NCBI GenBank assembly: GCA_032622095.1
Contig: CP136063.1
Coordinates: 70,099,980 to 70,163,979, forward strand
DNA from: Siphonodentalium dalli
Taxonomy: Eukaryota; Mollusca; Scaphopoda; Gadilida; Siphonodentaliidae
Length of the DNA stretch: 64,000 nt
Direction: 5' to 3'
The position numbers and the translations under genes were made by a program. The notes below the pieces were generated by a model. The model was given only the letters and a program-made list of their open reading frames with translations, made no database searches and was not told the DNA's origin. This document shows, piece after piece, positions 34,701-44,032 of the stretch (position 1 is its first letter; each line of letters begins with the position of its first letter).

Positions 34701-35563
34701 ATAAATAGCTCAAACTTTACAAAGTAAAGTTATCAAACTTTACAAAGTAACGTTCAGCTAAAACGAGTATGATGTACCGTTGAAATCGACAAAACACGCA
34801 CTTTATGTTGGGCACGAATGCTATATAATTTGGTCAATTGCGGCGAAACTATTGAACATAACGCAATGATACATGACGTATTGAACCCAAATATCAGCTC
34901 CTAATGTTGATTATCTACGGCTTACTACACAACATATCCTCTTGCAAATAGGTTCATATTGGACTTACGTTCAGATTGGACGTATGTGATTCTGGAATAA
35001 GCCCATATAGTGGATTTACACCCGTTATTCCTTCGGATGGTGCGGGCCACAGTGATAACACATTATAAAGGGCGTACACCTGGTAAGTCGCGAGTTGGTT
35101 TATTCGCGTTATTTTCCAGCCTGTTCTCATGAAATTAAGCACAATACGGACTGATCTAAAATTCAAATAGTCACATATAGGGGTGTTTTAATAACCAGTA
35201 TTTATGCCCATATAAGTCGTATTGGAGTTTTCAAATAATGCCACCAGGCCACTATAAGCTTATTTCGCGCAATTATAAAGTAAGTCCGAATTGTGCCTAT
35301 CTTCACGAGAACAGGCTATTTTGGAGTAGATGGTTCTAAATGAGCAGTATGGCGTTTCCCTTACCTTTGATACAATTTCTGTAACTGGAACAGGATATCG
35401 TTCTGCCACATGTGTTTCGAGTGAAATACTAACCTCATTGATCAGACTCGCACGCTGAGTGCTGGCATCAACATATATGTTCTTGCAGATACAACGACAG
35501 AACGTGTGCGATGCTTAGGATCTTAATGGCGAATTGTTCTCAGCTTTATTTGTTTAAAGGCAC
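34701..35563. other. Intergenic, no gene seen
   Basis: AT-rich. Short similar phrases (AATAAGCCCATATAGTG, CCCATATAAGTCG) recur here and near 44470-44620, suggesting another old repeat, but no unit can be defined. Confidence 0.4.
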
Positions 35564-36242
35564 GGGCGGCGTTCGTTATAGAAATATTCATATTTGTTCA
35601 AATCGCCATCAACTTAAGGAATATTAAAATATATATAGTTTTGTTCATATGCCAAAATAATCAGGGCGTAAATAGTATACTGTCGGCAAGACGTACGATG
35701 GTGTACGTAAACAAGAACCTTCTCGTGTTACAGAAGTTTTGCTTCTATTTACATAACGCATTACCATTAAGGAACACAGTGGAAATAATCGAGCTTTGGC
35801 TTGCTTTCCTGTGCGCTCCTTGATGGCAATCGATGGCATGACTTGTCAGACCGAGCTTATTCATGTGTATATTTCTCCTCTACTTCTCTGTCTTTCTACC
35901 TCCATCTCTATCTTTTAATGTCTAACTTATCTACAGTTATCTTACTAGTATTTCTTAAGCAACATGACAGTCCTGTTGAGGGAGGAGGGTGGGATAGCAC
36001 GGGTTGATTATTCATGTTTGTATATAGATATAAAGGTATGAGTATATATTTAGTAGTTATTACTAAGCTAGGTGTATTCACTATCTTGTCCCTCTGCAGA
36101 ACTGTCAAGCTGCATTCTTGTTATATTTATATATCTATAATTTGTATATTTATACTATATGAATGTCACACTCTGTATTGCTCTTTTGTATATATGCTTA
36201 TGCTCAATTGTCTACAAGTTTTGCATCTATTAGCCATTAAAA

Positions 36243-36275
<33 letters not shown>

Positions 36276-36586
36276 CATAACAATTATATTGGTTAATCAC
36301 ACACAAATGATATAAACGGTCTTTATGATTTCCATATCAGGAAAACAGTAACAAATAACGCTCTTTATGTTTACCATATCAGGATCTAAACAAAAGTCAG
36401 GTTCGGTCACGTTTTTTGCTTTTGTTTACATAACAAAGGAAAACCATTTGACAATAACATAGTGTTTATGCCATATTTCTGATTGGTATAAGAACAAGGT
36501 CTGTCTATATTTTACTATTCTTTCTGTTTATGGCGGTTTTTGACGGAGCTGAATATTTTAACAGCATACCCACCGCCAACGCCGCC
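35564..36586. mobile_element. Inverted-repeat element R1, copy 1, split by a LINE tail
   Basis: It begins GGGCGGCGTTCG and ends with CCACCGCCAACGCCGCC, an inverted counterpart. The second copy (39340-44032) has the same ends and interior. Without its insertion (35758-36273) this copy is about 500 bp. It is non-coding and includes ACGCTCTTTATGTTTACCAT and TTTGCTTTTGTTTACATAAC blocks. Confidence 0.7.
35758..36273 (+). mobile_element. 5'-truncated LINE tail with TCTA microsatellite
   Basis: A 516-bp insertion ends in ATTAAAATATTATCTATC followed by about seven TCTA repeats, as expected for a LINE 3' end. It is flanked by direct repeats TACATAAC at 35750-35757 and 36274-36281. The paralogous copy R1-2 has uninterrupted sequence at this point (about 43710-43740), so the insertion is directly demonstrated. 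Only a few C-terminal codons could remain, ending at the TGA near 35821. Confidence 0.75.
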
Positions 36587-39339: not shown

Positions 39340-39402
39340 GGGCGGCGTTCGTTGCTGAAATATTCACATTTGTTCAAATCGCCATCAACAGAAGGAATAT
39401 TA

Positions 39403-42400
39403 TAGTAGGGCGGCTAAGCGTAAAATCGTTCACTTGGTGATACAAGCATGAAATTTGGCACGAATGATCAGTATGGGCCACTAAACAATATTGTTCGACA
39501 AACCACGCGAAAATCCAAGATGGCCGCCATTTTTAAGATGGCCGCCATTTTCAGCTACTCAGTTTTCAAATTTTGAAAAGTTAACGGATTTTATCGATGT
39601 ATCACTCAAACAAGAGATCGTATGTCATTTCTAAAGGTTGAATTGAAATGAAAACACAACCTGAGTATATTAAAACAATATATTGTAACAAATTAGCTGT
39701 TTCGTTTCAAAAGTTTTGCATTTTTATATCAATTAACTTTAAAAAAAATTCAATTTCAAACAATTTAACCTCACACTATTTATGATGTTGGTACTGGGAT
39801 AGCTACACACATTCATTACTATCAGTTCTTAGAGTCTTTTAAACTTGGCAGCAACAACTGCATAAAGTGGTGCATGGAAGCCCAATATGGTAGCATGTAC
39901 ATCACCCACTATACGCCTTCTTGCAGCCGCATTTGGTCAACTGACTGCAAGATTTGGCAATTGGTGGAAGCTCCGTCCAAAATTGTTCCCAGTGACTGCC
40001 ATTTTCTGCCCATACCCAATATGCAGGACTCGGATAAGCTGGTTTACGTGCCAATGATTGTCCCCATATATGCCCTGCCTCGTATGCGGCTCGCTTGACA
40101 TGCTGCAACAGCGCAGACCTTGTAGGTGGAATAGCATTGTACGGTCTGTTTCCGTGCAAACACAGTCTAGTCTTGCTTCATTAATGTCATTGGGTGTATT
40201 TGAACAGTCGTACATTATTATAACGAATCTCTCGATTACTGCAATGTCATTTTATGTGATGGACACTCGAGAATTGCCAAGACTGGAGAAAATTGATAAA
40301 GCTTCTGGAAATTCCATATATTCCATGCCTGCCATGCAGACTGTTTTCCTTTCCCGCGAATTGCAGATACCACATCGCATCTACTAATTGCATGGAAAAA
40401 GATAATTCCATAACATTTTGTTGTACCTTGATGAAACAATCTCATGAATTTGAATCTCTCTGAATGTCTTTCTATGACCGAATGCTTTCAAACTTGAGTA
40501 TACAATTACAGCTATAATCACTATATCCGTATCGGTGGCTTGGATTATGATGCTGTTGTGTTGGTTGATAACTGCGTGTTTTGCATCCACAAATATCCGT
40601 GTATCGGCCTCTTCATGTGTACATGGTGCAAGAATATACAAATCAAGTTCACGGTTACTTTGTACATGTTCACCTTTGGTAACAACAATGCCATTATCCG
40701 TATTAACAGTTATGATCTTGTCAGCAAGGAAGTGAAATACTAGTAGCTATGTTTTGTTGTTGTAATCGCGAAGACAGCTATGCCAGTCTGCTAGAGTTTT
40801 GCTAGATCCTGATTCCTTTTCCGCGCTTTGACCTAGTTTCCTGTTTGTGGCTACCTGTCTTGTACACGTCAAACACGATGTCAGTTCTCTTATATTTATG
40901 ACACTATTAGGTTTAAGAACATTTATTATGTCAGAACCATCTATTATCATGTGCAAAATGGTCATAAATGTCACATTATCTTGTCTGATAATAATTAAAC
41001 AACCGAGAGAATAAGAGTTGACAATCATCTTTCGTACTTGTTTCTTTGATTTGATTTCAGCTGGAGAAGACCGAAAAATTTAAATATAATTTCTTTTGAT
41101 TAGATCATAGAAAGTACATTTATTTTGGTTTCCCATTCCTTTTATGAAATAACGCAGACTATTCATTGCCTTTCTTATAGACAACCTGAATCAGTTCAGC
41201 ATTAACTGGGTCTACAATGTATCTGGTGTCCAATGCCAAGAGGTCTGTGGAGTGATCAGAAAACGGATTTCCCATTTCTTGTGTCACGTCTGTGAGGTTA
41301 TTCACATTATTGAAAAATGTTTTTTGATATGCAATTGTCTCCTCGTGATGCTTGGTTTCTTATGTGATATCCTTTGTACAAGCAATATTATCATAATCAG
41401 AAATAAGGCAACATAATTCTGGACTAGCGACCGTCCATCTATTGAGTGTGCTTCATCCTCAGTTATCCCAATTACTCCTCCACCCCTTTCATGACTGCGT
41501 TGTGCTGTTCATGGGTCTGATCTATTGCCATACTTGAGAAGTTTCTTTCAGTCTTGTGTACAACGAAGTTCCCTCTGTGAAATTCATTTGCTATTCTGGG
41601 ATGTTTCTTCTCTATTGTCATCATGTCTCTGAGGTGAATAGGTAGCAGTAAAATTGTCAATTCAATGTCAAGCACCAAACTCCAGAACTGGAACTGTGGA
41701 CATTTACTTTTACACCAGTCTTTGGAATTTGAGTGCCTACTATCAACATCGGATAAATCCCGACTGCAGTATTCTGAGTGTGCAAATTTCATGAGTTTGA
41801 ACAGACTACATGCTGTTATCTGATGTGCATGTTCGGTTTTTGTAATACGTGAAGCTTCGATGAATGAATCCGCTGTGCCTGGGCTTGCTATACCTGCTTC
41901 TACGAGAGCACTCATCCAGTCGCTATCCAGAAGCACTGAATCAACCATATTAGAGCATCCAATTCCAGATGTAACCCTCCAAGCATAACAACATATTTGT
42001 CCTCATCATATAAGTATGGCCACTGCCACTGTATCTGCTTAGCCAATGCATACAGAGGCTGGTCTGCAGTAATGACCGGTGTCTGCTCTGAGTTTAGAAG
42101 TTGAACCGATTCATTAATTTTGCGCATGCAATGTTTTCTCGTGGTTAAAAAGTGAGCCTGATCACGCAACAGAGGTAACATTGAGGTTATTGCTACATCA
42201 AACTGATGACCTTGTCCCGTGTAAAGATGCTGTGCTGGTAGTTGATGTATGGTTGTGGTCAATATTGTCCAAAGCAGATGTGGTGAACAATCCTTTTCTC
42301 AATAGAGGTGGACACACAACTCCATCTGTTTGATACTGTTTAACAACAACCTCTAACAACAACCTCTCCAAGCTGGTTTGAGTTGTCCATGACACGATCA

Positions 42401-43586
42401 TAAGATATACTCAGTCAGTTTTCATAGAACATGTAAAATCAGGCTTCGTTTCCTTGTTTTTTTCGTACAAAGTGATGCCAGTGTATATAGGGATTGGTGT
42501 TTCACAATCTTGACAGTGGGGATGATAAAAGGCTCTGTCCTTATATCTAGATGAGAAACAGTTGATCTGTAATAACTGCGCGATTGCTAAATCAGACTTT
42601 GTTGCACCATGTGTAAGCTGTGACTTGATGTCAGCACCATGCTCGATCATACATACAAATTGCAGAAGACTTTGTGGTACAGAGCATTGTATACATCCTT
42701 GTTCAAACTTGTTGTCAAATTTGGTATGATGTTCAAGCATATGTTTACGAATGATTTCTGCTGCTCCAGCAATTTGTAGCGCTTAATTATGTTTACAAGC
42801 TTGGGACAGTACAGAACTAACTAATATAAGCACATCGTGACCATGTTTGTGCTTCTCCTTCAGAGAAATTTGTCATCTGCTTAATAAAATAATCAATACA
42901 TTATGGTAGACCGATTTGTACAAAATATGGAATGACATGTCAACAGTATTTAATGACTTCAAATATGAAATGCATACAATTGATTACGCTATTAATATTA
43001 GCAATTGTGTTGTCAATAATATCAACACCAAGCATAACTTAAACATTTTAACTCACACTATACCAACTTGCACATGTATGTTAACAGCCTATTTACACAT
43101 ATAATTTAACAACATTCAATAACTCCAGAAGAGAAGTACCAAAGAAATCGCCTTAAACTAAGTATCTATGTTATACCCCGTATAGACCTATCCAATAGTT
43201 GCAGTTGCTGAAAAAGTAGTCATCTAGATATTTTTTGAAGAATTTTTAAGAAACAAACCTGTAAAAATATGAAAATAATCAATAAATTCCGAAAAATAAT
43301 AATATTTTTGCATACTTATGATAACGCAACCTTTAAAGGGATGATTTACTTATATATCGTAACAAAGAAAGAACCGAAAAGTGGTTAGTGTATCTTATAT
43401 ACTGGGTAGAAGTTCAATGTGGCGGCCATTTTGAAAAATGGCGGCCATCTTGAATCCGGTGGCCATTTTGATTGGTTTGTCGAGCAATTTGTTTTAGTAA
43501 TATATATTGATAATGCATACCAAGTTTCATGCTTGTATCACCAACTGAACGATTTTACCATAATTTTACACTTAGCCGCCCTACTA
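39403..43586 (-). mobile_element. 4,184-bp TIR DNA transposon with TTA target duplication
   Basis: The termini start TAGTAGGGCGGCTAAG on both strands, and the terminal inverted repeats extend about 150 bp with one ~13-bp indel. TTA flanks it at 39400-39402 and 43587-43589; the empty-site paralogue at about 35612-35626 has a single TTA, which proves the borders. Each terminal repeat carries two AAGATGGCCGCC-type blocks. The interior holds one decayed gene on the minus strand (39840-42783). The 3-bp TTA duplication suits PIF/Harbinger or a related group, but no Harbinger DDE protein is visible. Confidence 0.85.
39840..42783 (-). pseudogene. Decayed gene of an uncharacterised multi-copy invertebrate family, PIN/XPG-like?
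   Basis: About 950 codons are spread over several frames with stops. Family blocks I recognise, in order, are IQCSVPQSLLQF; LRKGLFTTSALDNIDHN with an SLHGT follow-up; VMLGGLHLELDAL; MSALVEAGIASPGTADSFI; TEHAHQITACSLF; MAIDQTHEQHNAVMKGVEE; GNPFSDHSTDLLALDTRYIV; APCTHEEADTRIF; ATDTDIVIIAV; LFHAISRCDVVS; and a tail with YWVWAENGSHWEQFW and KCGCKK. The pairing of EEAD (40611-40600) with DTD 24 residues later resembles the acidic motifs of PIN/XPG-type nucleases; this is an inference. The family is abundant and poorly annotated in molluscs and cnidarians. It is the only gene in the 4.2-kb transposon. Confidence 0.75.
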
Positions 43587-44032
43587 TTAAAATATATATA
43601 GTTTTGTTCATATGCCGAACATAATCAGTGCGTAAATAGCATATTGTCGTCAAGACGTACGATGTTGTACGTAAACAAGAGCATGCTCGTGTTACAGAAG
43701 TTGGGCTTCTGTTTACATAACACAGCGAAATTCCATTGGTTAATCACACACAAATGATATAAACGCTCTTTATTATTTCCATATCAGGAAAACAGTAACA
43801 AAAACGCTCTTTATGTTTACCATATCCGGATCTGAACAAAAGACAAGTAACGTAAAGTGTTTTGCTTTTGTTTGCATAACAAAGGAAACAAATTGACAAT
43901 AACATATTGTTTATGCCATATTTCTGATTGGTATAAGAACAAAGTCTGTCTATATTTTACTATTCTTTCTGTTTATGGCGGTTTTTGACGGTGGTGAATA
44001 TTTTAACAGCATACCCACCGCCAACACCGCCC

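Follow-up and report, generated by a model that had tools for sequence, protein, structure and literature searches.

The window, that is, the whole 64,000-nucleotide stretch of DNA of the scaphopod Siphonodentalium dalli analysed here, contains a dead and internally deleted cut-and-paste DNA transposon, most likely a member of the Academ superfamily and its AcademX lineage. It is probably an ordinary dead copy of an Academ element, and the unexpected feature of its group is an asymmetry between the two transposon ends.

The transposon occupies 4,184 bp, begins with TAGTAGGGCGGC, finishes with GCCGCCCTACTA and is flanked on both sides by TTA, with inverted ends that reach about 150 bp inward. 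When its flanks are joined they align over 209 bp with another part of the window, with 186 identical positions (89%) and 1 gap, which lies away from the junction; this paralogous site is unoccupied and holds one TTA only. The letters of the window had already suggested a transposon of exactly this length, with inverted ends, with TTA duplicated and with a paralogous site left empty, and all of these points are borne out. At 36282-36353 there is another piece of the target repeat, which matches at 94% over 72 bp and is shifted relative to the empty site. The features of the window are as follows.

39403..43586, no strand: whole transposon copy, a non-autonomous deletion derivative (ends, inverted termini, duplication and sister comparison)
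39400..39402, plus strand: left copy of the 3-bp target duplication TTA (flank comparison)
43587..43589, plus strand: right copy of the 3-bp target duplication TTA (flank comparison)
39403..39551, plus strand: left inverted terminal region, gene-end side
43435..43586, minus strand: right inverted terminal region, gene-start side
39403..39453, plus strand: short end, 51 bp from the tip to the end of the AAGCATGAAA box
43525..43586, minus strand: long end, 62 bp from the tip to the end of the AAGCATGAAA box
39854..42851, minus strand: decayed transposase remnant which matches, in several frames, parts of residues 307-1526 of the intact relative (1,533 aa)
41472..42002, minus strand: remnant of the conserved central region, containing DQTHEQHNAVMKG
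40384..41079, minus strand: remnant of the putative XPG-like domain with CTHEEADTRI and ATDTDIVII and one stop inside (motif positions in relatives)
35553..35760, plus strand: unoccupied paralogous repeat with one TTA only, at 35624-35626 (flank alignment)

The host genome that was searched comprises 2.23 Gb in 9 contigs, and the 12-bp terminus occurs in it 361 times vs 35 for the backward control. Six of the loci recovered (L001, L002 and L005-L008) share the first 12 bases and continue with TCCGTGAC, TCCGTGTC or TACGTGAC; these ends are another family with a common tip. Ten copies of the terminus lie on one strand at G000:C2:42552953-43532762 with a spacing of about 75-165 kb, which suggests a large segmental repeat.

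Among the 28 loci examined, both ends were found in 21 (17 paired-end copies, L046, L050, L051, and L044 joined with L052), one end only in L025, L042 (the same place as L044), L043 and L048, and no pair in L045, L047 and L049. An exact 3-bp duplication flanks 28 of 32 elements, namely the window copy, 14 of the 17 paired-end copies, all three of L046, L050 and L051, the single 9,116-bp element and 9 of 10 further pairs; it is absent in 3 of the 17 paired-end copies and in 1 of the 10 further pairs. The duplicated triplets vary widely and include TTG, CTT, TGG, CAG, CCA and AAA. The TTA duplication is thus true of the window copy, but the group as a whole shows 3 bp of varying sequence, and the target has no fixed sequence.

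The gene of the window copy, on the minus strand, is reduced to a remnant with frameshifts and stops, whose matches to the intact relative begin no earlier than residue 307. Two fuller elements, of 6,444 bp (L024) and 6,446 bp (L033), have ends of the window type, duplications TTA and ATT, and the protein; they are 97.7% alike and both frames are slightly broken. Compared with them, the window copy lacks about 1.7 kb after position 727 plus several smaller pieces, and it is a dead deletion derivative of the 6.4-kb element. Three other copies (L028, L029 and L032) are collinear with it over their whole length at 96.6-97.2% identity, and since they have target duplications of their own (ATA, ATA and CTT, respectively), the deleted form has moved, presumably in trans. 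The transposon group also includes young copies (L042 group, 97-99% alike). The dN/dS values in this young group were 1.26, 1.10 and 0.62, with no clean signal, and those of the two frames of the L024/L033 pair were 0.38 and 0.24.

The association of these ends with the protein was examined across the host genome using the pattern TAGT followed 28-58 bp on by AAGCATGAAATTTGG, which was found at 135 sites vs 0 for the backward control; the AAGCATGAAATTTGG box by itself was found at 262 sites vs 2. The 84 ends counted, which include the left end of the window copy, are 100 listed ends minus 4 rows that overlap others, 11 that belong to a cluster on contig C4 and 1 with its TAGT away from the tip. 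Among the matches listed, the protein lies within 7 kb inward of at least 52 of the 84 ends and outward of none, and these numbers were unchanged in a recount with every listed protein place on contigs C1-C5. The cluster that was set aside (G000:C4:134924019-135001351) has eleven such ends on one strand, spaced by about 2.4-12.5 kb, and is a cluster or tandem array containing a transposon end.

The transposase-like protein group is large: one genome search, in which 150 of 558 candidates were scored, gave at least 218 matches, and a second, in which 100 of 3,690 were scored, gave at least 108. Four of five terminal groups are linked to the protein; for the remaining one (TAGTCCAGGCGCTTGG) no link was found. 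Pairs of TAGTCCAGGCGCTTGG ends such as G000:C1:119373215-119377832, and similar pairs of 4.6 kb, enclose no protein among the matches listed; they may be non-autonomous elements, or their protein may be a more distant relative. Because fuller relatives sit between inverted ends of the same kind with 3-bp duplications, the protein is the element's own, as the sequence-only reading had supposed; the inverted repeats that it proposed looking for around intact family members are present, in the host genome, around fuller ones, and capture by a Harbinger element need not be invoked.

In the fuller relatives, of 6.4 and 9.1 kb, a single protein of about 1,530 residues is encoded, which has a cysteine-rich tail. 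The intact form is an uninterrupted frame of 1,533 aa (L042:548-5146) inside a 9,116-bp element (L052 joined with L044) which has its own duplication, CAG, and whose next longest frame is 194 aa. Upstream of the long frame, L052 and L045 contain diverged tandem repeats in the long 5' leader of the 9.1-kb family. The N-terminal part of the protein has two CxxC...HxxC modules (C43/C46/H112/C115 and C160/C163/H213/C216); across the 8 loci compared, each of these positions is conserved in 7 or 8. In the central region D680 is conserved in 17 of 18 copies and E902 in 16 of 17. Invariant residues in the alignment of 12 members are D1134, D1173, D1177, E1267, E1268, D1270, D1294 and D1296; with decayed copies added, 16 of 17 have D at 1294, 16 of 17 have it at 1296 and 12 of 17 have it at 1353.

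The order of the C-terminal acids (D1134, D1173/D1177, E1268-x-D1270, D1294-x-D1296 and mostly GCD1353 followed by GKK) is that of FEN1, whose residue roles we presume to be as commonly given. It parallels the order D, D, ExE/ExD, DxD, D and a GxGKK-like turn of FEN1/XPG nucleases, from which the protein differs in that the sequence score is not significant and in that the domain is C-terminal in a much larger protein. A profile of the protein group scored 21.9 against 51 FEN1 sequences, which is not significant given that the reversed alignment scored 23.9 and that 2 of 60 column shuffles were higher (23.4 and 26.0); a longer profile scored 20.5 (P 0.12) and a comparison with other gap settings 23.9, again not significant. 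The profile of 12 members gave a best E of 0.18 in the PDB, where the central region has no detectable similarity to any solved structure. The intact protein had no match in PHROGs (E up to 1), in PDB sequences (E up to 5) or in Pfam, where E values up to 5 were admitted and, for a near-twin, up to 10; other members gave weak Pfam matches to unrelated families only, under the family cut-offs. Pfam XPG_I was found at 7 places in the genome, none of them among the transposase places listed. Two scans of viral contigs for relatives returned 106 and 46 pattern matches with no relative confirmed, and the fold prediction of the decayed window fragment was unusable (mean pLDDT 31.7). The earlier guess of a PIN/XPG nuclease stands as regards the acidic motif order and falls short in the profile score; motif order makes an XPG-like C-terminal part quite likely.

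The two ends of the elements differ in the distance from tip to box. A looser pattern (TAGT, GGC, then AGCATGAAA after a free gap, with 42-73 bp allowed from tip to box) occurs at 452 genome sites vs 0 for the control. In the 100 of these sites that were listed, the distance from the tip to the end of the box is 50-52 bp in 40 and 60-62 bp in 56, the other four being 45, 54, 57 and 59 bp, a difference between long and short ends of about one helical turn. Within the 100 listed ends there are 22 convergent neighbour pairs no more than 12 kb apart, and every one of them consists of one short (50-52 bp) and one long (62 bp) end; when these ends were shuffled among the pairs, 1 of 100,000 trials did as well, a figure to be read with the common descent of the copies in mind, since the pairs are not independent and the terminal groups (n=5) are the better units. 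By direct measurement of 22 elements, 21 have one end of 50-52 bp and the other of 62 bp; in the L044 element the AAGCATGAAA box is not recognisable at one end. The terminal groups are listed below with the short and long distances.

Terminal group 1, TAGTAGGGCGGC: 51/62 bp, long end on the gene-start side
Terminal group 2, TAGTCCAGGCGATTA: 52/62 bp, long end on the gene-end side
Terminal group 3, TAGTCCAGGCGCTTGG: 52/62 bp
Terminal group 4, TAGTCAGG/TAGTAAGG: 52/62 bp, long end on the gene-start side
Terminal group 5, TAGTATAGCGG: 62 bp at one end, at the other a shared block offset by 10 bp (by eye), long end on the gene-end side

The TAGTCCAGGCGATTA and TAGTCCAGGCGCTTGG groups have TAGTCCAGGC in common and may be related.

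Unequal ends are known from the P element, and RAG/Transib elements follow the 12/23 rule. In both, as here, the position of the inner binding box is about one helical turn different at the two ends; the end motifs are other ones, and the present elements make a 3-bp duplication. By analogy, it is conceivable, as a tentative reading, that the transposase always brings a short end together with a long one, whose box is farther from the tip by one helical turn (10-11 bp). RAG/Transib elements have heptamer/nonamer ends and a 5-bp duplication, and the present group, with TAGT ends and 3-bp duplications, does not share these features of membership.

The Academ superfamily and its AcademX lineage are reportedly the subject of work by Kapitonov and Jurka in 2010 and Kojima in 2020. 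The assignment made here is by published descriptions of features, no Academ protein sequence having been compared. According to the parts of the literature consulted, AcademX has duplications of 3 or 4 bp and AcademH of 9 or 10, a difference tied to the encoded helicase and nuclease (PMC10045372), and 100 curated bivalve Academ elements have a mean length of 5,565 bp (PMC10294476). The present group resembles AcademX, as far as these sources describe it, in the 3-bp duplication (exact in 28 of 32), the nuclease-like domain, the lack of a helicase match, the element length and the abundance in some invertebrates (bivalves). With respect to the nuclease, which in Academ is of the XPG type, the acidic motif order is present, the FEN1 profile is not significant and there is no Pfam XPG_I match; with respect to a DDD/E core, D680 and E902 are conserved, with no match to solved structures. 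The group differs in that the one-turn end asymmetry goes unmentioned in the AcademX descriptions consulted, and the likeness is by description only. In the Academ literature searched, in the portions consulted, no mention of the asymmetry was found, the feature itself not being a search term, and the corresponding portions of PMC10799480, PMC9783078, PMC4455052, PMC8290104, PMC12210899, PMC4298943 and PMC5753468 held nothing bearing on the Academ assignment. The sister lineage in the published classification, AcademH, has a helicase and 9-10 bp duplications in the accounts consulted, and the 3-bp duplications and the lack of a helicase match speak against it.

Other readings of the element were considered. 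An undescribed superfamily, kin to no named group and using the XPG-like nuclease as transposase, had been suggested in the sequence-only reading; the intact protein is indeed without a match in Pfam, PHROGs and PDB, and its Academ likeness is known here from descriptions and not from sequence. This proposal is nevertheless improbable, because 3-bp duplications, a nuclease-like part and element size agree with what is described, in the texts consulted, for Academ and its AcademX lineage. PIF/Harbinger elements make a TWA-specific 3-bp duplication and have a separate DDE transposase and a Myb-like gene. That such an element had captured a host gene would agree with the 3-bp duplication and with the TTA of the window copy; it is rejected because the duplications vary, many other 3-mers being present and the target not being fixed. 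The protein moreover recurs in four terminal groups, and in the intact element it is the only long frame, without a Pfam match and with no other frame above 194 aa, so that this origin is extremely unlikely.

A variant of the preferred Academ reading, compatible with Academ membership, takes the central region (D680...E902 and the acids between) as a DDE/RNase H-like core for all cutting and joining, with the XPG-like domain as an accessory, e.g., in flap trimming. The conservation of the two residues in almost all copies favors it, as does the counting of Academ among the superfamilies with a DDD/E transposase in the part of the source consulted (PMC9587614), while the central region resembles no solved structure, the whole protein has no Pfam family and the second residue of the triad cannot be assigned. 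The arguments for and against this variant are evenly balanced.

On the Academ reading, a mechanism can be proposed. The protein would bind the TAGT... block at the terminus and, subterminally, the AAGCATGAAATTTGG box, and a short end, in which the box ends 51-52 bp in, would be paired with a long end (62 bp in). The element would then be excised and inserted with a 3-bp stagger into targets without a fixed sequence. Candidate catalytic acids lie in the conserved central region, and the C-terminus has a putative XPG/FEN-like nuclease domain. The window copy would have been moved in trans, as suggested by the deletion structure common to its sister copies.

Through ends, target duplications and an intact frame, all from a single genome, these results link mobile elements with a protein that Pfam does not match, and this linkage would account for the high number of such genes in the host genome. 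Should the protein prove to be a nuclease transposase of the XPG type, a pairing rule of this kind, if it holds, would not be confined to RAG/Transib and P elements, and the end asymmetry offers a concrete prediction on how the ends are assembled in these little-studied transposons.
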